Positions 4,313-64,000 of a stretch of DNA of 64,000 bases are shown here, piece after piece. The translations under genes were made by a program, and so were the position numbers. The stretch is taken from NCBI RefSeq assembly GCF_900177345.1, contig NZ_FWZT01000024.1:1-64000 (forward strand). The letters are read 5' to 3'. Each line of letters starts with the position of its first letter. Position 1 is the stretch's first letter. The stretch is from Pseudobacteriovorax antillogorgiicola (GTDB lineage Bacteria > Bdellovibrionota_B > Oligoflexia > Oligoflexales > Oligoflexaceae). The notes beneath the pieces are model-generated. The model was not told the origin of the DNA. It saw nothing but the letters and a program-made list of their open reading frames with translations, and did no database searches.

Positions 4313-5845
4313 CTACTCTGATACCAAAATCTCGGCCACAGCCCAGCTGATGGATGCTTTCGATGTTCCTTCGTATTCGAAGCCAATCACAATGGTATCG
4401 CCAATAAATTTTTTCAAAGGAATCTTTCCAGACACAACGAACTTATCCACTTCGGGGGAATTTCCTCTTATGTTAAGCAGCTCCCAAGTTACGGCAGGAT
4501 CTTCTGGGTCACCCTTGTAATTGTTGGAGACCTTAACTTTTAGATTGCTTAGTGGATTGTTATTCAAAAACTTGATTCTATCCACAATCTGTAAATAAGG
4601 GTCCTTCGCATTGCTTAAATCAATCACTGGGCTAATAAGCCAATCATGATTGTCACCAGAGTTATCGTTAAACCCAGACATGCTCAAGCCGACTGGTCGA
4701 TTGCCATCATTTTTGTCCTTGTAGGCACGCCAAACATATTTACCTTTAAGACTAATCTCTTTGAAGCCTAGGTCAGCAACCGAGCCTTCGAGGGCCTTGT
4801 AGTAAATCTCACCTGCTCCTGGTGTGAGGCGCTTGACAAACGTTTTGTTCGGTGCAGGAGTTTCACCATTCCCGTTATCACCACCCTTTGAGCCATCAGC
4901 TAACTTCAATGGAATCGGAGTAAAATCCCCCTTGCCCACACCTTTCACACGCAGCCACTCGATCTCCCAAGTCGGTTGGTGAGATTGCGGTGCAACGTAG
5001 TGGAACGCGATCGCGATTTTCTTGCCAATGTAGCTATCAAGGGAAATCTCTTCTGAGTTCTTCCACTGCCAGTTTTGGCCGCCTGCTTCTGGTTTTTCTT
5101 CTACCGGGATCACATCCCAATCAGCAGCTGTGGGGTCACCACCTGTAAAATTGGTGGAAATCTTCAGCTCTAGGCCGTCCCACGTAGAAAGGAAGCCCAC
5201 AGCTTGACGGAATGTCATCGCAGGATCAATGATACCAGTTAGATCTAGGACTGGTGAAATGAGCCATGCTTCCACATCAGTTTTCTGGCCAAAGGCCGTA
5301 ACTTTTGCGTAACCACCAGCGTCACCCTTCCACTCAACACTGCTTTTTACAGTCACGTTGCTGAAGCCACCTAAGCTCTGACCGTTAAACTCTTCGGCAA
5401 AAAGGTCCCGAAAGAAAGCCAGATTTAGGGATTGAAGGACTTCGCCACGGAAGAAGTCAATAAGGTCGCGAAAACTATCGTTGTCCTTATCTTGAAACCC
5501 TGCGTTTTGATTCGAGAGGGCATTCACCCGCACTGAAAGCATCGCTGCGGCTGCATCACTCTCAAGATCATCCTTCAAGCGATAAAGTGCTACTTTGATC
5601 CAATGAAGGTGATCTTCTACCATCTGCTTTTCCTGTTCTCTCACACTAGAGAGTAGGTAGCCTTGGTTGATATCTTGCTCATATATACCCACACGGCGAA
5701 TACCTTCCTGAACAAGTGCGAGCTTCTCTGGATCTTGGCTCACATTCGACTGATTATCATCATCGGACGATGAGCAGGACACACTGCTCAAAAGTCCTGC
5801 TGTTATAAACAAACTTACTGTTAGTCGCTTAATTAGGGTGTTCAT
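4313..5845 (-). CDS. Lipoprotein with two choice-of-anchor J domains
   Basis: A 510-residue lipoprotein with lipobox at Cys24 and a Ser/Asp-rich linker. After a helical region (about 40-140) there are two related beta-sandwich modules. The first, near 160-300, contains AWLISPVLDLTG; the second, near 360-505, contains DWLISPVIDLSN. Both continue into a 'kv(s)nnf/y.GDP..a.W' strand pattern characteristic of choice-of-anchor J (MAM-like, carbohydrate-binding-fold) domains. Such domains bind surface ligands. Co-orientation with the ExeM-like nuclease suggests a cell-surface assembly that captures and degrades polymer. No catalytic residues are seen. Confidence 0.75.
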   Translation of the reverse strand: MNTLIKRLTVSLFITAGLLSSVSCSSSDDDNQSNVSQDPEKLALVQEGIRRVGIYEQDINQGYLLSSVREQEKQMVEDHLHWIKVALYRLKDDLESDAAAAMLSVRVNALSNQNAGFQDKDNDSFRDLIDFFRGEVLQSLNLAFFRDLFAEEFNGQSLGGFSNVTVKSSVEWKGDAGGYAKVTAFGQKTDVEAWLISPVLDLTGIIDPAMTFRQAVGFLSTWDGLELKISTNFTGGDPTAADWDVIPVEEKPEAGGQNWQWKNSEEISLDSYIGKKIAIAFHYVAPQSHQPTWEIEWLRVKGVGKGDFTPIPLKLADGSKGGDNGNGETPAPNKTFVKRLTPGAGEIYYKALEGSVADLGFKEISLKGKYVWRAYKDKNDGNRPVGLSMSGFNDNSGDNHDWLISPVIDLSNAKDPYLQIVDRIKFLNNNPLSNLKVKVSNNYKGDPEDPAVTWELLNIRGNSPEVDKFVVSGKIPLKKFIGDTIVIGFEYEGTSKASISWAVAEILVSE

Positions 5846-5892
5846 AGTCTAAGCCCTTATGTGGTCCCTAAAAGTTATCAATGGCGATACAC

Positions 5893-5925
5893 AAAAAAAA
5901 TGCTGCTAAATAAAATAGCAGCATT
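5893..5925 (-). terminator. Rho-independent terminator of the outer-membrane barrel gene
   Basis: On the minus strand a perfect 10-bp stem AATGCTGCTA/TAGCAGCATT with a 7-base loop is followed by eight T residues. It lies just after the stop of the 5932-7332 gene, so the downstream lipoprotein-nuclease pair should have its own promoter in 5846-5892 or depend on read-through. Confidence 0.85.
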
Positions 5926-5931
5926 GTTGTC

Positions 5932-7332
5932 TTAATCTAATGAGTAAATCAATTCGACAGTAAAGCGCGAAAGCTTCTTGTTCCGTTCGACAAGATTGTC
6001 ATCTTCTCGCAGATCTGACTTGTTTCCAAAAACCTTGTTTTGGGCCACAAGATACTCGTACTCTGGTACGATCGTGTAATCGCCACGCTTAATTTTAAAG
6101 CCAGCACCAAACATTTTAAGGCCGCCATGACCCTCGGTACGGTCTGCAGAACGAAGGCGGTGAACCGACTCTTCTTCCCAGAACACAAAGTGTTCGCCAA
6201 GGGTCTTATAAGATACGTATGGAGTTAGACCACCAAAAACATCATAGGATGCCTTGATGCCGTATGCGTAGTCATCTTTACCTAGCCAATCTTGAGGTTC
6301 TAGGTTGTCGTCAACGTAGATACCCCGGTCGTTCAGAGGTGGGTTCCAGTTGCGGAACCAACTGGCATCGTATGGAATGTCATAGGCATTGTCACCAGCT
6401 TTCGAGTATCCAGCTTCTAAATCTAGAGCAAATCGACCAAATTTTTGGCCAACTTGGATGTTACCAGCAGCTTCAAGGAGAGCACCTGTCTCTTTGGCTT
6501 CTTCATGGGCTACGTACTTGACAATAACGGTGGTATCGTCTGTGACGAAGTCAACGCCGACCTTAAATCCGGTGTCATTCTTGGCACTCCAGCTGTCCGC
6601 TGTAGCTTGAGCATCGAGTTGGAAATTTTCGTCGTTCGGATAGTAGTACCGCGCAGATCCGTATCCAAAAGTGAGAGTCAATGATTTGAGCGGTTGATAC
6701 TTCACATCAAGACCAGGAAGAGTCTTGACGCGAATACCTTCAAAATCAGAATCATCGTCTGCGGTTGGGTCGGACGCAGGAATCTGATCAAAAAGATCTT
6801 CGAAGTAGTAGATGCGAGTCACGTCGTTCGTGTAGAACTCGTTACCGACTTCGCCGTTGAAGTTGAATGGGTAATAAGTGATCGCCCATTCGTCGTTCGG
6901 CTTATAGCTAATGAATGAATAATCAGAATCGGTATCCGGGCCGAAGGACATCCCACCGCCATCATTAAGACGCCAGTCTGCATCGAGCTGAATCTCGAAA
7001 TCATAAAGCTGGTGATTCATGATCAATTCTAGCTTGGATGTCTTATTTTCTTCGGGGTTTTTCTTGGGGTCAGTATTAAAACGGAGGCGAAAGAAGGAGT
7101 CGTCGGATGGGTGGTACTTAAACGCTGCTTGAACTTCAGTATCTTCTCCCAATTCGGTGCCTTCTGAGGAGCTATGAACCCTTTGTTTGTATTTCACAAA
7201 CTCAAGATAGGCTTTGGACTCTGGTTTCTTGTCAAAGCCAACACTACTTTCCACTGGAACAGTGGCAAATGCTGGGGCACCCAATACCAGGGCGCTAAGG
7301 GTCATGACGGAAGACTTGCTCGCTAACTTCAT
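5932..7332 (-). CDS. Outer-membrane beta-barrel protein (porin-like)
   Basis: A 466-residue protein with a clear Sec signal peptide (cleavage near AFA at about residue 23). The mature part is a run of alternating amphipathic strands rich in aromatic residues, with Asp-rich loops such as DPTADDDSDFEG, as in porins and alginate-export-like barrels. The C terminus (FTVELIYSLD) is strand-like but lacks the classical terminal Phe. Acidic loops may bind cations, though the substrate cannot be told from sequence. It is a single-gene transcript, bounded by a strong terminator and a long AT-rich upstream region. It may supply the nucleotides or phosphate released by the neighbouring nuclease; that link is inference. 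Confidence 0.7.
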   Translation of the reverse strand: MKLASKSSVMTLSALVLGAPAFATVPVESSVGFDKKPESKAYLEFVKYKQRVHSSSEGTELGEDTEVQAAFKYHPSDDSFFRLRFNTDPKKNPEENKTSKLELIMNHQLYDFEIQLDADWRLNDGGGMSFGPDTDSDYSFISYKPNDEWAITYYPFNFNGEVGNEFYTNDVTRIYYFEDLFDQIPASDPTADDDSDFEGIRVKTLPGLDVKYQPLKSLTLTFGYGSARYYYPNDENFQLDAQATADSWSAKNDTGFKVGVDFVTDDTTVIVKYVAHEEAKETGALLEAAGNIQVGQKFGRFALDLEAGYSKAGDNAYDIPYDASWFRNWNPPLNDRGIYVDDNLEPQDWLGKDDYAYGIKASYDVFGGLTPYVSYKTLGEHFVFWEEESVHRLRSADRTEGHGGLKMFGAGFKIKRGDYTIVPEYEYLVAQNKVFGNKSDLREDDNLVERNKKLSRFTVELIYSLD

Positions 7333-48275: not shown

Positions 48276-50237
48276 GTGTTGAAAAAGCATATGATAGAGA
48301 AACTTCAAGAGGTGATAGCTGGGGAACAGGGGCGTTCGAGTCTGCCCCTAGTTGCTATCCTATCGCTCTCCGGGCTAGTTGGAATCTACTTATCACAACA
48401 AAGCTCTAAGCAGCAACAGGCTCTTCAGAAGGCCCGAATGGAGATTTCAAACCAAAACTTAGACGACGAACTTCGTAATGCCCTAGCATCATTTAAATCT
48501 CTTATGTCCAATAGAAAGATTGCTACCGACCAGTATGAACCAACTCTATTTGCAGAAGACTATTTCGCATCGAAATGGTCACTTCAGAAAAACACATTGG
48601 CAAAGACAAGCGGAATTACAAGCTCGAACAGCGGTTCCAAGGTAACTATTGAAACACTCAAAGCCTTGACAAGTGCTAGCTCCGAGGATCTATCTGAGAT
48701 CTATGAGGGTAGTAAAAGCGTAGCGGAAACCGCTAAAGAAACTGTTGACATCGAGATCATAAAAGTCGTCTTTGATGACAGCAATCCCTATCTCGCAAAA
48801 GGAATACTTGTGAGGGCATCAACTGCAGGTGCAGAAGGCGAGAAATCAGCCAAAGCTCTCGTGCCTCTTACCGTTCCCGAACCCAGCGATATCAAGCTCT
48901 GGGTCAAAGCCCCGGGCTCATCGACATTTCAACAAGTCTATGGTTCCGAAAACTCACCCTTGCCTGCTGGTGATTATGAACTCATGATAACAGCCGATGG
49001 AGTTGCGCTGGACGCTGAAATTTCGATCAACAACGGGACGCCAATTGTTATTGGTAGTGACGTAAAACACGACGCCCATAACATTCGCGCCGATGATGCT
49101 TCAATTGGCGTCATCAAACTGAAAGCAGGTGGCAACGGTGAGCTTATTTATGAATTTGATCACAAAACATGTTCTGCGACCCCTACGACCGCCTCTGGAT
49201 CGAACAAGTATAACATCGATGTAACTGTCTACGACCCTTCTCTCAATATTCATAAGCCCAAAATTGGGCTAGTCAACCTTTTTGTCGAGAATAAAGCAGC
49301 TTCGAGCAAGAAGATGAGTTTTGCGGAACTCACTGCTCTTTGCCCAGGAAAATGTGCAAGCACAACCTACACTCCAACCGCTGGAGTTGTACAAGGAGGT
49401 ATCAGCCTTTCAGCCAACAATTACCTAGCTAGCAAGGCAGATATTGAAAAGATTGTCGGTCACTCAATTTCTGAATCTGGTATGATTAGTACAGATTATT
49501 ATCAGCTTGCTCACCGAGAGTACTTCCCAACCTATAGCTATACCGCATTCCACAACCAAACCCAGAAATATGGGATTTTTGATGCGAAAGTCTGTGCGTC
49601 TAACTCTCGGGGCTTAGCAAAATCTTTAGCTGACCATAACTATGATGTCCAAAAAGCCTATGACAAGATCGTCAATACTGGTAACTATTATAAAACGATT
49701 CAAAGAATTTACTATCAGGAACCGTCATGTAAACCCAGGCTACTATTCAATAGGAATAGCTGTGGATGTTTCGCTGAAAATACTGAAATTCTACTAGGTG
49801 ATCAAAAGTCTCTACTTAGAATTCAGGACATCCAGCAGGGTGATCTAGTCTGGAACCCCAAAACTAAAGCAGCGGCGAAGGTAGCGAGGGTCATCGTCGG
49901 TCCTGAAAAATTCCCTCTGATACGAATAACACTGAGCAATCAGCAAGCGCTGAGAATCACTGGCAAACACCCCTTCCCTACGCCATCTGGGATCAAAGCT
50001 GCCTTTCAACTGATGGCGGGGGAGACTGTGCTATCAAATAACGGAAACCCACTAAGAATCCTTGAAGTTCAGCAAGAATCAAGTAGCCAAGAAACGATCG
50101 TTTGGAATTTGCTTTTAGAAGGAGAGCGCTTGCAAGACCACTATCTCGTTGCCAATGGAGTGGTTACAGGAGACTACTTTATACAGCAAAAGCTGGAATC
50201 CTCTCCAGGAAATAGAATCGTCGATCGTCGTAGGTGA
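48276..50237 (+). CDS. Pilin-like protein with C-terminal Hint domain
   Basis: A 653-residue protein. N-terminal MLKKHM...GEQG-RSSLPLVAILSLSGLVGIYL resembles a type IV prepilin leader (cleavage after Gly19), as in the 51062 gene, but without the usual hydrophobic +1 and Glu+5. A long, Cys-poor middle region follows. From 497 to about 635 it is a Hint (Hedgehog/intein) domain: Cys498 in GCFAENTEILL, 'DIQQGDLVW', Thr562-x-x-His565 in ITGKHPF and HYLVANGVV near 622-630 close to the end. Cys498 and the TxxH pair suggest autoprocessing, perhaps cleavage or thioester attachment. Start GTG 48276 (GAGAG upstream) is uncertain. Confidence 0.7.
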   Translation: MLKKHMIEKLQEVIAGEQGRSSLPLVAILSLSGLVGIYLSQQSSKQQQALQKARMEISNQNLDDELRNALASFKSLMSNRKIATDQYEPTLFAEDYFASKWSLQKNTLAKTSGITSSNSGSKVTIETLKALTSASSEDLSEIYEGSKSVAETAKETVDIEIIKVVFDDSNPYLAKGILVRASTAGAEGEKSAKALVPLTVPEPSDIKLWVKAPGSSTFQQVYGSENSPLPAGDYELMITADGVALDAEISINNGTPIVIGSDVKHDAHNIRADDASIGVIKLKAGGNGELIYEFDHKTCSATPTTASGSNKYNIDVTVYDPSLNIHKPKIGLVNLFVENKAASSKKMSFAELTALCPGKCASTTYTPTAGVVQGGISLSANNYLASKADIEKIVGHSISESGMISTDYYQLAHREYFPTYSYTAFHNQTQKYGIFDAKVCASNSRGLAKSLADHNYDVQKAYDKIVNTGNYYKTIQRIYYQEPSCKPRLLFNRNSCGCFAENTEILLGDQKSLLRIQDIQQGDLVWNPKTKAAAKVARVIVGPEKFPLIRITLSNQQALRITGKHPFPTPSGIKAAFQLMAGETVLSNNGNPLRILEVQQESSSQETIVWNLLLEGERLQDHYLVANGVVTGDYFIQQKLESSPGNRIVDRRR

Positions 50238-58152: not shown

Positions 58153-60024
58153 CTAAACTGGTAGCTCAGCCTTTTGCAGATAGACGGTAATTTCGGTGCC
58201 AGAATCGTCACCGTACTGATCCTTGGGCCGGCTTTGGAAGTCATATCGACCAAGAAACGACTGGATCGAACGTAGTGCGATTTGGAGGCCAAAGCCTGTT
58301 CCTTTTTCGCCGTTAGTCCCTATGGTAGAACTAAGCTTTTGATTCTCATTGAGGTTCTGTAAAAGCTCTTCAGGGATTCCAATCCCCGTGTCTTTTATTG
58401 TTATTACTGCACGGGAGGCTGTTTCTTGCCAGCTAAGCTGTATGCTACTGCCTGGGTCGGTAAACTTGATTGCGTTGCTAACAAAGTTACCTAAGACCTC
58501 ATTGACGAGAGTCGACTCAACGGCCTTCACGCAGATGTTAGGTCCACCGGAGATATCCAGTTCAACACCTTTTTCCTTAGCACGCTCAGCAAAAAGAAAG
58601 CGGATTTCCTCAGCAACCTTTTGCAGAGAAACGCTCTCTAAATCTACTGTCTCGTTACGATCGAGGTGAAGCTCATAATCTTTTACACCACTGATAATGC
58701 TTTCAATGATACCAGCACCCTTCAGTATTTTTCCTAAGAGGAAGTTTTCCGGGTCCCGTCTTTGCGCAGCGAAAGCTGCTCCTGAAACAAGAGATAAAGC
58801 ATTGTTAATATCATGAGAGATAATTCTAAAAAGATGTCTTAGCTCTTCTGCAGTTTTTCTTCTAACCGATGCCTCGATCTCAGCGGCACGCCGCAAATGG
58901 TCAATCTCCTTAATGCGTGCCGCCAGGGCAAAAGCCATCATGATGAGTTGAGTGCAAAGCCCAATCATTATGAACAACTGGGTCCACTCGTTGAAGACAA
59001 TTCCACCTTGCAGGGTGACAAGATATAGGAAAGCGAACCCGAAAAAGCTAATTTGTGATACTAGGTAGTAGAATGCGGAACGAGACCCTTGATAGGTTCG
59101 CATTGCCGACAATAGGATAAGTAGAACCAACCCCAAAAGAAACAAGCCATCAAGGCTGGCACGAACAAAACTTTGCCAAGGTGATACGGCGTAGAGAAGC
59201 GGTGTTATAAGTAAAAGCCCACAATAACCGAGTAAGGCTTTCCCAAACCAAGAATTGTTACCTGTAGTCCCCGTTAACATATCATAGGCAAACAGAAAAG
59301 CGGTCAGGGGAAAAATAAACCTAAAATATGGCAGATAGTATAAGGTGTCCGGCCCTAGGAAGTGGAGCGTTCCAATGGGAAAGTTAACGATCATCAATGC
59401 TGAGAAGGTATTGGTAGAAACGTAAAAAACATAAAAAAGATAGAGGCGATCCCCAAGACTCAGCCATAGAAACATTTTATATAGAGTCAAGGCAAACAGG
59501 ATACCAAGCATCATCGCTATAAGTATAAGCGTACGTTGCTCCTTGTCCCTGAATGCATCCGACTTATCGGCAAGAAACCTCACTCCCATGGAGCTAAGGC
59601 TAGCTTGGCGGATGAGATACTCTCTAAAGCCTTCCTTGAGCTCAAATGCTGGGACACGGCTTTCCAGTACGTCGACTCGCTTAAAACCACCGTTCGGCTC
59701 TCGCACAAACACATCGAAGCGATCTAGGGCATTGTAGACACTGGCGACAGTCCAGGACTTGCTGTCTTGATTATCAACAGTCAATGAGACCCACACCCCG
59801 TGATCAAAATATTGGGGAGGAAGCCCTGGCTCCTGGAGCCCGACAAAGCGACCTTCATTTAAGGCGACTACGGCAGCATCTAATGAGAGAGACTTGGTTT
59901 CGATAAGATACCGAACCCCTTGCCCAATCTCGATGGAAGCCACACCAGATTCAGATATGACTACTTGTCCACGAGCTAATGTTGTCCAAACAGCTAATAA
60001 GCTGATGAAAAAGAACCTATGCAT
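58153..60024 (-). CDS. 7TMR-DISM sensor histidine kinase
   Basis: A 623-residue kinase. I start at ATG 60024 (MHRFFFISLLAVW), 14 codons inside the longest frame. It has a signal peptide, a 7TMR-DISM extracellular domain (residues about 25-175), seven transmembrane helices (about 180-375), then HisKA with His404 in ISHDINNALSL and a HATPase with N-box NFVSNAIKF, G1 DTGIGIP and G2 GTGFGLQI. 7TMR-DISM proteins are thought to sense carbohydrate-like or other ligands at the outside. No response regulator is adjacent. It reads away from the short ORF at 60267-60299, which lies 243 bases upstream on the same strand. Confidence 0.9.
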   Translation of the reverse strand: MHRFFFISLLAVWTTLARGQVVISESGVASIEIGQGVRYLIETKSLSLDAAVVALNEGRFVGLQEPGLPPQYFDHGVWVSLTVDNQDSKSWTVASVYNALDRFDVFVREPNGGFKRVDVLESRVPAFELKEGFREYLIRQASLSSMGVRFLADKSDAFRDKEQRTLILIAMMLGILFALTLYKMFLWLSLGDRLYLFYVFYVSTNTFSALMIVNFPIGTLHFLGPDTLYYLPYFRFIFPLTAFLFAYDMLTGTTGNNSWFGKALLGYCGLLLITPLLYAVSPWQSFVRASLDGLFLLGLVLLILLSAMRTYQGSRSAFYYLVSQISFFGFAFLYLVTLQGGIVFNEWTQLFIMIGLCTQLIMMAFALAARIKEIDHLRRAAEIEASVRRKTAEELRHLFRIISHDINNALSLVSGAAFAAQRRDPENFLLGKILKGAGIIESIISGVKDYELHLDRNETVDLESVSLQKVAEEIRFLFAERAKEKGVELDISGGPNICVKAVESTLVNEVLGNFVSNAIKFTDPGSSIQLSWQETASRAVITIKDTGIGIPEELLQNLNENQKLSSTIGTNGEKGTGFGLQIALRSIQSFLGRYDFQSRPKDQYGDDSGTEITVYLQKAELPV

Positions 60025-60237
60025 AATCGTCCGTAACTTGGCTGATCTTTGTGCCACAACGCACATTTGCGATTCGAAATGGAAGAATTATGCCAAAAAA
60101 ACGAAATCGCCAGATTCAGCCGGGGTGTGCAAAGCCTTTTTGAGCTTATCGATTATGATTATCGCAATCCGAGTTATTTCGCAAGGAGAGGTCAAGGTCG
60201 AAGTGTTTTTTTGAAGGTAACGTTTAGACGAAGGAGA

Positions 60238-60260
60238 TTGCGCGACCACAGGTCGCGCAA
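60238..60260 (-). terminator. Perfect GC-rich hairpin after the tiny ORF
   Basis: TTGCGCGACC/GGTCGCGCAA, a 10-bp perfect stem with a 3-base loop, 6 bases after the stop of the tiny ORF. The downstream T-tract is weak (TCTCCTTCG), so it may be a 3' stabiliser or a terminator. Confidence 0.5.
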
Positions 60261-60266
60261 CGTTAA

Positions 60267-60299
60267 TTAAAATGAGATGGTTGCAAACTTCTTTTTCAT
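60267..60299 (-). CDS. Tiny ORF, 10 residues, possible RiPP precursor or leader peptide
   Basis: The ORF encodes MKKKFATISF and ends in TAA. It is preceded by a full AGGAGG (60313-60308) at the standard 8-base spacing to ATG. Basic start, hydrophobic/Thr-Ser end and a stable hairpin directly after the stop give a compact gene-like unit. It lies divergent from and 450 bases before a YcaO plus haem-oxygenase-fold operon; Thr7 and Ser9 would be candidate YcaO targets. Microcin C's 7-residue MccA shows such short precursors exist. Alternatives: a leader peptide in the long upstream region of the 58153 kinase, or chance. Coding status is unproven. Confidence 0.4.
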   Translation of the reverse strand: MKKKFATISF

Positions 60300-60749
60300 A
60301 ATGGGAACCTCCTGAGTTATCTTGTACTAGACTCTTCGCGTTGCCTCGGGCACCACCTTAGAAACTTTTTCTAAAAAGTAGAAACCCTCTACAAACCCAG
60401 CTATTGCACCTCACCTATTCAGGGGACTTTCCAAGGAACCACAAGAACGTGCCTATGGTGTTCTTTCCAGCTACCTCACAAAGTTCTTTCGAGTGGTAAG
60501 AGTCTTTGGCTCCCCGAAGGCACATTTGTACTTTTTAATAAAAAACCCTGGCCAGCCTCAGAGTCATTCACAAGTATTTCCAATAATTTGGCCTGATACC
60601 AGAAAAACGATTCACGATTTACGGCGCAGACACGATAGCAGCAAATATGTTTCTGAACTGGCGTTGACAGCCATCTCGCTTCGGAAACTGACCGTCTCTA
60701 ATCCTTAAAAAAGACGGATGATATATCATTAACTGGTTCAGGAGGTCCG

Positions 60750-61424
60750 ATGAAGCAGCTCCTTTCAGTCAAGCGGGAAGTCGAATCTTTCTTGACTCAC
60801 ATGAAATCGAAGAACCCATTGTACCATGCGCTGTTTTACCAGCCAGTATCATTAGAAACCTTGTCCGTCTTTACCACTAATCTGCAACGTCTAGTAGAAC
60901 ACACGCCCGTTCATTTAAAGCTTGCTATCGAAACTAGCGCGTCTCAAAACCGTGAGCCACTCCAATCCTTCTTTAGGGATAAGTTTCTTGAGGAGCAGGG
61001 CCACGACCAATGGGCTGCCAATGATCTTAAGCGCCAACAGACACTCGGCAGCAAGGCTCGTAATATTCCCATCCTGCCAAGCATGCAGGAGCTGATCGAC
61101 TTCAATAGCGAAACGATCCTGAGTGACCCCGGCTGCTACTTGGCCTATATCTTCCTGGCTGAATATATGACCGTTCTGGGAACCCCGGATATGCTTAAAT
61201 CACTGCAAGAAAATTCAAAAATCCCTCCCGACGCACTCACAATCCTTGGCAATCATGCTGAGCTTGATCAGAACCATGTGTTGAACTGGGAAAGTGAAAT
61301 TGCAAATCTTGTTGATCTAAATCAATATGAGCCGCTTTTCTTAGACACAATCCGACGGGCGGCAAGCCGATACGAGCAGTTTTGCACAGATTGCTACGAG
61401 GTGAGCTATGACATTGCAGTTTAA
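60750..61424 (+). CDS. Haem-oxygenase-like-fold (PqqC/CADD-type) enzyme
   Basis: A 224-residue helical protein with GGAGG 5 bases before ATG. The KFLEEQGHDQW motif (about 77-87) and the HAELDQNHV motif (about 171-179) match the helix-borne Glu/His/Asp ligands of the iron-containing redox / haem-oxygenase-like dimetal oxidase superfamily (PqqC, CADD, TenA relatives). Such enzymes activate oxygen to cleave, hydroxylate or rearrange amino acid-like substrates. The gene overlaps the YcaO gene by 17 bases, so both probably act in one pathway. Confidence 0.78.
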   Translation: MKQLLSVKREVESFLTHMKSKNPLYHALFYQPVSLETLSVFTTNLQRLVEHTPVHLKLAIETSASQNREPLQSFFRDKFLEEQGHDQWAANDLKRQQTLGSKARNIPILPSMQELIDFNSETILSDPGCYLAYIFLAEYMTVLGTPDMLKSLQENSKIPPDALTILGNHAELDQNHVLNWESEIANLVDLNQYEPLFLDTIRRAASRYEQFCTDCYEVSYDIAV

Positions 61425-62442
61425 AAAGGTTTTGCATTCCCAGCTTGCAGAGTGGACACTTGAGCCGCCCTTCGTTGAAACGGCGACGGTGTGCAATCTC
61501 AAGATCTTTGGAGTTGGGATGATAGCGAGCCATCCCAAGTTTGGCCAGGCTATAGGTGCAGCAGCCTCATTGCTTGAAACCCCAAGCAATCGCGCCTGGT
61601 TTGAGCTTTGCGAAAGAGCGGCGATACTTGAAGGCCTAGCCAAGGGTCCTGATGGGATTTTCCCCATTCGAGACATAGACGGGCATCTTCGTGAGATGCG
61701 CAGAGGCCGACTTGTTTTTGGTGACGATACCTACAACCAACAGAGCTTGAGCTTAAAAAAATCGAAATCAAATGGAGTCGCACTTTATAGCAATTGGCCT
61801 GAAGCTTGTCTGAGGGCAAGTTTAGAGCTTATGGAGCGCCATCACATTTTAGAATCTTGGCGGGGCCAGACGCTCCCTAAAAGGTGTATCCCTTCCTCTC
61901 TTGGTTCGCTGCACCCACTGCACGAGATATACGATCCGCACTACTATCTTCTAGGGCAAGATCATCTCACGACCACAGGCTCAATCGTTTGTACGGTGAT
62001 GGTTTACTTCAAACCGAAGCCTTCATACAAATTTAAAGCCCCTTGTCTTTACGCCTTCGATTGCAGTGAATCCCTAGAACTTAGTTTTCAACATGCGGAA
62101 CAAGAGCTACTCCAAAGACTCATTTTCTTATGGGGTGAACCGTTACCAAAAGAAGCTCCTCTCGTTTCCCCGGATGCTCAATTTCATCAAGACTACTATC
62201 TGTATCCTGAAAACACCTCGATCCTGGATGCGTGGCTAGCTGGTGAGTTTCTTACGGTCAAGACTGAAACTAAACCTGATTCATTCAACATGATTTTTGC
62301 CGATCTATCCAGTACATCCACCCCTGAATACCATGTGGCAAAAGCCATTTGCCCCGAAACCCACGAGCTCTACTTCGGGCTTTCAGAAAATTTTCCCCAG
62401 ATCTACCGTAACAAGGCTCAGATGGTTCATCCCATCCCTTGA
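61408..62442 (+). CDS. YcaO-domain protein
   Basis: A 344-residue YcaO-fold ATPase. ATP-binding signatures: SNGVALYSNWPEACLRASLELMERHHIL (about 120-147), with the S-x-G-x-A and E..ER motifs, and LSFQHAEQELLQR near 225-237. The C terminus ends VHPIP, recalling the Pro-rich end of RiPP cyclodehydratases. YcaO enzymes phosphorylate the peptide backbone amide to make azolines, thioamides or amidines. It is shorter than standalone YcaO (about 400) and no E1-like or TfuA partner is nearby. GAGGTGAG precedes ATG 61408. Confidence 0.78.
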   Translation: MTLQFKKVLHSQLAEWTLEPPFVETATVCNLKIFGVGMIASHPKFGQAIGAAASLLETPSNRAWFELCERAAILEGLAKGPDGIFPIRDIDGHLREMRRGRLVFGDDTYNQQSLSLKKSKSNGVALYSNWPEACLRASLELMERHHILESWRGQTLPKRCIPSSLGSLHPLHEIYDPHYYLLGQDHLTTTGSIVCTVMVYFKPKPSYKFKAPCLYAFDCSESLELSFQHAEQELLQRLIFLWGEPLPKEAPLVSPDAQFHQDYYLYPENTSILDAWLAGEFLTVKTETKPDSFNMIFADLSSTSTPEYHVAKAICPETHELYFGLSENFPQIYRNKAQMVHPIP

Positions 62443-63509: not shown

Positions 63510-64000
63510 CTAAGCGTTTTCAATCGCTAAGGCTTCCCCTTTGATACCACCTTGGGGCTTACTTTTCGGCCCCTCGCTGTTGTACCACTTGGCGACAGCG
63601 ATAAACAGAACCGACGCCACAAACATAGTTCCCGCAAAGAACAGGTAGTAGTCTGCACCAGCCAGCTTACTCGTTCCATCTTCGTTCTGAATGAAAAAGT
63701 TCACAGCCATCACAAACAAGTTACCAAGTGCGACTGATACTAGGTAAAGAGACATAATAAAGGATTTCATGGATTTTGGAGCTTGAGCGTAAGAAAACTC
63801 CAAGCACGTGATTGAAACGAATACTTCAGCCAGGGTGATCACTAGATAGGCTAGAAGCTGCCAGGCTATGCTAGGGGTTTGGCCAGCGGTGATCCATGAT
63901 TCGATCAGAGCCGAGATCAAAAACGCAGCCACTGTCAAAAAGAAACCGATGCCCATGCGAGTCAAATAACCAAGTGGAATTATAGTCCGTAGAAAGGGAT
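63510..64000 (-). CDS. POT/PTR-family peptide transporter, partial
   Basis: The C-terminal part of a proton-dependent oligopeptide transporter, open to the window edge and continuing beyond 64000. The in-frame upstream residues include RTIIPLGYLTRMGIGF, so the apparent start at 63965 is internal. Visible helices and motif YLVITLAEVFVSITCLEFSYAQAPKSMKSFIMSLYLVSVALGNLF match POT family helices 10-12. It would import di- and tripeptides. About 160 residues are visible of a protein usually 450-500 long. Confidence 0.85.
   Translation of the reverse strand, partial: PFLRTIIPLGYLTRMGIGFFLTVAAFLISALIESWITAGQTPSIAWQLLAYLVITLAEVFVSITCLEFSYAQAPKSMKSFIMSLYLVSVALGNLFVMAVNFFIQNEDGTSKLAGADYYLFFAGTMFVASVLFIAVAKWYNSEGPKSKPQGGIKGEALAIENA

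Follow-up and report, generated by a model that had tools for sequence, protein, structure and literature searches.

Several described systems share single features with the locus reported here. In the thiovarsolins (VarA/VarY/VarT/VarO), deletion of varO abolishes a dehydrogenation (PMC6511847), and a 2026 review of haem-oxygenase-fold putative dimetal oxidases (HDOs) cites the thiovarsolin work for ribosomal peptide modification, as a single system (PMC13108848). In the bottromycin and streptamidine pathways, ring formation is carried out by stand-alone YcaO enzymes (PMC4603692, PMC8442711). YcaO cyclodehydratases turn Ser, Cys and Thr into azolines, and maturation of YcaO peptides usually depends on a leader, tens of residues long, to which a partner protein binds. 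Very small precursors are found elsewhere, e.g., the MccA peptide of microcin C7, the 7-residue product of a tiny gene, which has a C-terminal Asn and is adenylated by the ThiF-type MccB. Biarylitides are made from 5-residue precursors whose aromatic residues are crosslinked by a P450 (PMC8708641, PMC13417212), and selidamides are GNAT-acylated RiPPs in which Lys or ornithine is acylated (PMC9505594). To our knowledge, no stand-alone YcaO RiPP combines HDO/GNAT with a 10-residue precursor. In the open-licence literature searched, including a search that combined the peptide string with YcaO, we found no report of the mini-ORF peptide/YcaO family described below, and we infer with high confidence that it is a YcaO RiPP variant not previously reported in that literature, with an unknown product.

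The window, i.e., the whole 64,000-nt stretch of Pseudobacteriovorax antillogorgiicola DNA that was analysed, carries on its minus strand a 10-codon precursor ORF (60267..60299), which reads ATG AAA AAG AAG TTT GCA ACC ATC TCA TTT TAA from the ATG at 60299 to the TAA ending at 60267 and encodes MKKKFATISF. The ATG follows a ribosome-binding site, AGGAGG (60308..60313, minus strand), at a distance of 8 nt, and a perfect 10-bp hairpin without a U-run (60238..60260, minus strand) begins 6 nt past the stop, reading TTGCGCGACC-TGT-GGTCGCGCAA from 60260 to 60238. All three elements were assigned by sequence; the fold also supports the hairpin, and the ORF recurs once more in this genome and in 15 relatives. 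An earlier note, made from the sequence alone, had claimed an ORF, an AGGAGG and a perfect hairpin at 60313-60238, and this held exactly. A promoter/terminator scan of the region detected no sigma-70-like promoter and did not call the hairpin an intrinsic terminator; the hairpin probably stabilises the mRNA 3′ end or marks a processing site there, and is less likely to be a classical terminator. An Rfam scan of the region gave nothing meaningful, and PADLOC returned no defence match.

Divergent from the mini-ORF lies a gene pair encoding an HDO (60750..61424, plus strand; Pfam Haem_oxygenas_2 and structure model) and a stand-alone YcaO (61408..62442, plus strand; Pfam YcaO, invariant residues and nearest folds), the two genes overlapping by 17 nt. 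On the ORF's own strand, 200 nt downstream, is a gene for a 7TMR-DISM sensor histidine kinase (58153..60066, minus strand), a possible receptor or regulator identified by Pfam and by its kinship to the kinases that adjoin the mini-ORF in two Oligoflexus MAGs, G004 and G005 (full-length, 26-29% identity). The YcaO model has a pLDDT of 90, and the solved folds closest to it are ATP-bound archaeal YcaO (6pe3, 6cib), McbD and LynD, with MusD (7u58) also among the nearest structures. Among 12 sequences compared, E66, E69, S121, G123, E140, E143, R144, E233 and Q236 are invariant; the glutamates and the glutamine include what we take to be the ATP/Mg-binding set, the assignment of single residues resting on general knowledge. 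By these residues and the fold match the ATP-binding set is likely to be intact. The HDO model (pLDDT 95) has 3dde, chlamydial CADD, PolF and UndA as nearest folds, and its residues E82, H85, D92, E138, H169, D173 and H176 are invariant in 11 sequences, a carboxylate/His set compatible with a dimetal site, for which both metal binding and ligand assignment are inferred.

Two further genes of the window were recorded. The end of a gene for a POT-family (PTR2) peptide transporter (63510-64000, minus strand) lies near the HDO-YcaO pair, and uptake of a modified peptide by it is only a question. A 653-residue protein (48276-50237, plus strand) has a Hint/intein-like C-terminal part (CFAENTEILLGD..., HPF, C-terminal VAN).

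A BLAST search of the intergenic DNA against its own 7.28-Mb genome returned one other match, which spans the ORF alone. This second copy (contig C27, 90253-90285; ATGAAAAAGAAGTTCGCTACAATCTCATTCTAA) encodes an identical peptide and differs by four DNA changes, all four of them synonymous; random single changes in the ORF are synonymous in about 20% of cases, and four out of four would occur by chance with a probability of about 0.0015. The flanks of the two copies align at background level, without notable similarity. The C27 copy has a Shine-Dalgarno-like AAGGA, and the hairpin that follows it differs in sequence (AGAGCTGGC-CTC-GCCAGCTCT); this copy, too, is divergent from an HDO-YcaO pair, and an opposite-strand gene lies downstream. 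Between the window and C27 the HDO proteins are 41-42% and the YcaO proteins about 33-36% identical. The enzymes are thus deeply diverged and the peptide is identical, indicating that the peptide was held constant while its neighbours changed. A degenerate peptide pattern matches exactly twice in the 7.28 Mb, at these two loci, and not at all in the reversed control.

Elsewhere on C27, some 4 kb away from the second mini-ORF, a gene for a distant Haem_oxygenas_2 protein adjoins a desaturase-like gene (L003:4567-5277 and 5307-6290), and response-regulator and HTH genes separate this pair from the mini-ORF locus. On another contig of the same genome there is a TfuA gene (G000:C11:130090-130440), probably part of a separate thioamide-type locus.

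Together with relatives in other genomes, the mini-ORF is found at 17 loci across two groups of bacteria (the window, C27 and 15 others). Two loci are in Oligoflexus MAGs of the same family as the window's genome: in G005, MKKKFACITF is encoded directly upstream of HDO-YcaO, and in G004 the mini-ORF (MSRKKKFATVCF) lies beside a kinase-HDO pair and divergent from the kinase, with YcaO on another contig. Nine loci of a second group, assigned to another phylum, have the mini-ORF directly upstream of HDO-YcaO and encode MMKKFAQYCI, MRRKFALYSF, MKKKFAQISF, MKKKFAQHCL, MKKRFAQSCI, MRKKYAHASM, MKKYGFVTV, MKKKFAQLSF and MKKKYAKICT. The usual operon order in this group is GNAT, mini-ORF, HDO, YcaO, and genes for a response regulator and a histidine kinase converge on it from the opposite side; across loci, the GNATs are homologous to one another, as are the kinases and the regulators. 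At four loci without HDO, YcaO comes straight after the mini-ORF (MKKRYATISF, MKKRYALVTW, MKKKFALLSF, MKKRYATLSF), each with a Shine-Dalgarno site. HDO is accordingly present at 13 of the 17 loci and missing at four; a GNAT acyltransferase and a histidine kinase/response regulator are frequent, GNAT not being seen in the Oligoflexales loci. In most of 13 loci tested, the 60 nt past the stop form a more stable fold than shuffled sequences do (z -1.7 to -5.3), and the hairpins after different mini-ORFs are unrelated in sequence, only their position being kept. Plasmids and viral contigs contained no mini-ORF/YcaO loci of this type. The one scan of genome contigs used narrow HDO patterns and gave three loci, and the 17 loci are not a measure of the true spread.

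Some loci bear on the family without carrying the full arrangement. The Oligoflexus MAGs G006 (L030:8255-9259) and G004 (L031:7009-8031) each have a lone YcaO of the same family at a spot syntenic with the full G005 operon, adjoining propionate-metabolism-like genes; no mini-ORF or HDO was detected in G006, a fragmented assembly. At three of the four HDO-less loci (L086:2343-3033, L087:1-649, L088:2265-3033) a divergent gene with a similar N-terminus lies beside the GNAT gene. The one at L087 has a B12-binding domain, and this gene perhaps encodes a radical-SAM/cobalamin enzyme replacing HDO.

Control searches tied the mini-ORF to YcaO. Among the top HDO loci in a group of 369 genomes, it was found at all nine with an adjacent YcaO and at none of the 11 without. 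One fixed rule was met by 16 of the 17 peptide loci vs one of 17 HDO-only loci, with 0.05 matches per locus in shuffles, and the same rule counts a Shine-Dalgarno-like stretch in 16/17 loci. It misses G005, where the Shine-Dalgarno match is weak, and its sole control match, an ORF starting with TTG, lacks the motif. This comparison is not independent, because the rule was written after the peptides were known. An independent test was given by a blind scan of these 369 genomes, some 1.2 Gb of sequence, for the pattern M-K-K-[KR]-[FY]-A-x-x-[STC]-x-stop, in which neighbouring genes were ignored. It returned ten matches vs two in the reversed control; eight of the ten lie directly upstream of a mini-ORF-associated YcaO or its HDO, and four of these are at loci found no other way. 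The four new loci have YcaO without HDO, indicating that the constant partner is YcaO rather than HDO.

Several candidates were rejected. The two remaining matches of the blind scan, in G145 and G380 (second group), have neither a ribosome-binding site nor YcaO and were taken as chance, and class-wide matches to a loose pattern beyond four known loci were tails of longer frames or lacked a ribosome-binding site. The HDO relatives in G008 and G016, including the candidate MRNTTQCF (G016), were excluded for a distant HDO and no adjacent YcaO. At these loci (L015, L016) the distant HDO lies beside PilZ/GNAT-like and adenylate-cyclase-like proteins without YcaO, a different recurring neighbourhood.

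The mini-peptides are 9-12 residues long and follow the consensus [KR][KR][FY]A-x-x-[S/T/C]-phi-stop. Across the 17 loci, the N-terminal basic residues followed by F/Y and A are nearly constant and positions -4 and -3 are variable. Position -2 is Ser, Cys or Thr in 17/17 peptides, Ser being encoded by AGC and TCA codons alike. Swaps among the three require at least eight changes on the YcaO tree, two of them forced by well-supported branches; most inner branches of this tree are weakly supported. Free exchange among exactly Ser, Cys and Thr is hard to explain save by chemistry at this position, which we regard as the likely cause. Amino acids conserved over changing third positions, the check that the earlier note had proposed, were found, and its reading as a minimal precursor peptide is supported, with the ORF, ribosome-binding site and hairpin recurring beside YcaO or HDO-YcaO.

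These data show a conserved ORF with a ribosome-binding site in nearly all loci and a fixed YcaO partnership, and a hairpin in most loci tested. A YcaO-class RiPP calls for an encoded precursor, conserved at the peptide level, beside a modifying enzyme, and this is met by the 17 loci, the synonymous changes and the blind scan. The azol(in)e (TOMM/LAP) class calls for Cys, Ser or Thr at the proposed modified site, which is met in 17/17 peptides, the modification itself being inferred. We consider it very likely that the mini-ORF is a real translated gene, translation being inferred without a transcript, ribosome profile or mass spectrum. The mini-peptide is very probably a YcaO substrate, i.e., a whole RiPP precursor without a separate leader, which is again an inference since no modified product was seen. 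Modification at position -2 is inferred with somewhat less assurance, as likely.

In the proposed mechanism, the basic-aromatic-Ala N-terminus would serve as a built-in recognition tag. YcaO, with ATP, would activate the amide before the penultimate Ser, Cys or Thr and close an oxazoline or thiazoline between residues -3 and -2. Where present, HDO may oxidise the product, e.g., from azoline to azole or by desaturation, and GNAT may acylate an amine. The hairpin could stabilise the mRNA or terminate it in part, and so keep the short precursor mRNA above the enzyme mRNA; its conservation in place, not in sequence, is as expected for such an element. The product would most likely be a small molecule that is secreted or sensed, the linked histidine kinase/response regulator acting as regulator or receptor. 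That the peptide is a signal for the linked kinase is plausible and unproven, and we lean slightly against it; the kinase link may merely reflect the commonness of kinases. Similarly tentative, and less likely than not, is the bolder joint reading of an undescribed RiPP family whose leaderless 9-12-residue product is modified at the -2 Ser/Cys/Thr by YcaO, in many loci also oxidised by HDO and acylated by GNAT, and acts as a pheromone for the co-located kinase. A Pfam scan of the neighbours revealed no protease and neither an RRE nor an E1-like partner, although such a partner could be diverged or lie farther away; seven of the eight genomes tested lack TfuA, and in the eighth, G000, it is unlinked, on another contig. 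Substrate recognition is therefore unexplained.

Of the rival explanations, the one that survives best accepts that the peptide is made and modified and replaces the azoline at -2 by another YcaO reaction, i.e., formation of a thioamide or amidine, or cutting or capping of the C-terminus. Thioamide and amidine formation and peptide cleavage are all established YcaO activities, MusD is one of the nearest structures, and streptamidine was at first taken for an oxazoline (PMC8442711). A reaction of this kind is possible and in our view unlikely: the limitation of -2 to Ser/Cys/Thr in all 17 peptides would be needless for backbone thioamidation, and TfuA is missing from most of the genomes tested.

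A regulatory leader, in which translation of the ORF and the hairpin control a gene downstream, e.g., the kinase, by attenuation, would fit the strong ribosome-binding site, the hairpin and the same-strand kinase of the window. The downstream gene, however, is not constant: it is HDO in G005 and the nine second-group loci, YcaO at four loci, an opposite-strand gene in C27 and the kinase in the window, and in G004 the ORF is divergent from the kinase. Moreover, the amino acids are kept and the hairpin sequences are not, and neither an alternative structure nor a run of regulatory codons was seen. We therefore regard this explanation as very unlikely; the kinase leader peptide suggested by the earlier note failed, and its observation of a same-strand sensor kinase downstream held for the window, where the kinase is not a fixed target. 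Just as improbable is a mini-protein that is not a substrate and acts as a subunit, activator or antitoxin-like partner of HDO/YcaO. Constant proximity and a very short basic peptide speak for it, whereas free Ser/Cys/Thr exchange at one position, with all else excluded, is not expected of a binding partner, and YcaO is by family a peptide-modifying enzyme. A chance ORF, also considered in the earlier note, is all but excluded: short ORFs arise often and the degenerate pattern has a few random matches (2 in 369 genomes), but the identical second peptide with synonymous codons, the 17 loci and the blind scan argue against it.

If, as the preferred reading of a leaderless precursor holds, a lone YcaO uses a 10-residue peptide, the system would be a very small and clean model for substrate choice that can be assayed with synthetic peptides. 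Ten-codon genes escape gene finders, and the mini-ORF family and similar ones may therefore hide in many genomes. Taken together, HDO, GNAT and sensor kinase suggest that little-studied bacteria carry out peptide chemistry that is still unexplored, possibly for cell-cell signalling.

Compared with known systems, the mini-ORF loci resemble microcin C7 in the tiny gene, the use of the whole peptide as precursor and the hairpin past the ORF, but have no ThiF-family neighbour by Pfam scan and no C-terminal Asn in any of the 17 peptides; the likeness to MccA drawn in the earlier note held for size only. With biarylitides they share minimal precursor genes missed by automatic annotation, and differ in having YcaO and HDO and another motif. 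The GNAT family enzyme in a RiPP cluster recalls the selidamides, and the mini-ORF peptides are Lys-rich with a GNAT gene; the selidamides have other precursor types and other maturases, and acylation at the mini-ORF loci is only inferred. As in bottromycin and streptamidine, YcaO may act at the mini-ORF loci without a dedicated E1-like or TfuA partner, no E1-like protein having been seen by Pfam among the neighbours; those two pathways have larger precursors and employ radical SAM/methyltransferases, or a dehydrogenase and a peptidase. The thiovarsolins are the sole characterised precedent that we found for the joint action of a YcaO and a haem-oxygenase-like protein on a ribosomal peptide. 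In contrast to VarA, a repeating precursor on which YcaO and TfuA make a thioamide, the mini-ORF system has peptides of 9-12 residues, no linked TfuA, and Ser, Cys or Thr fixed at position -2.
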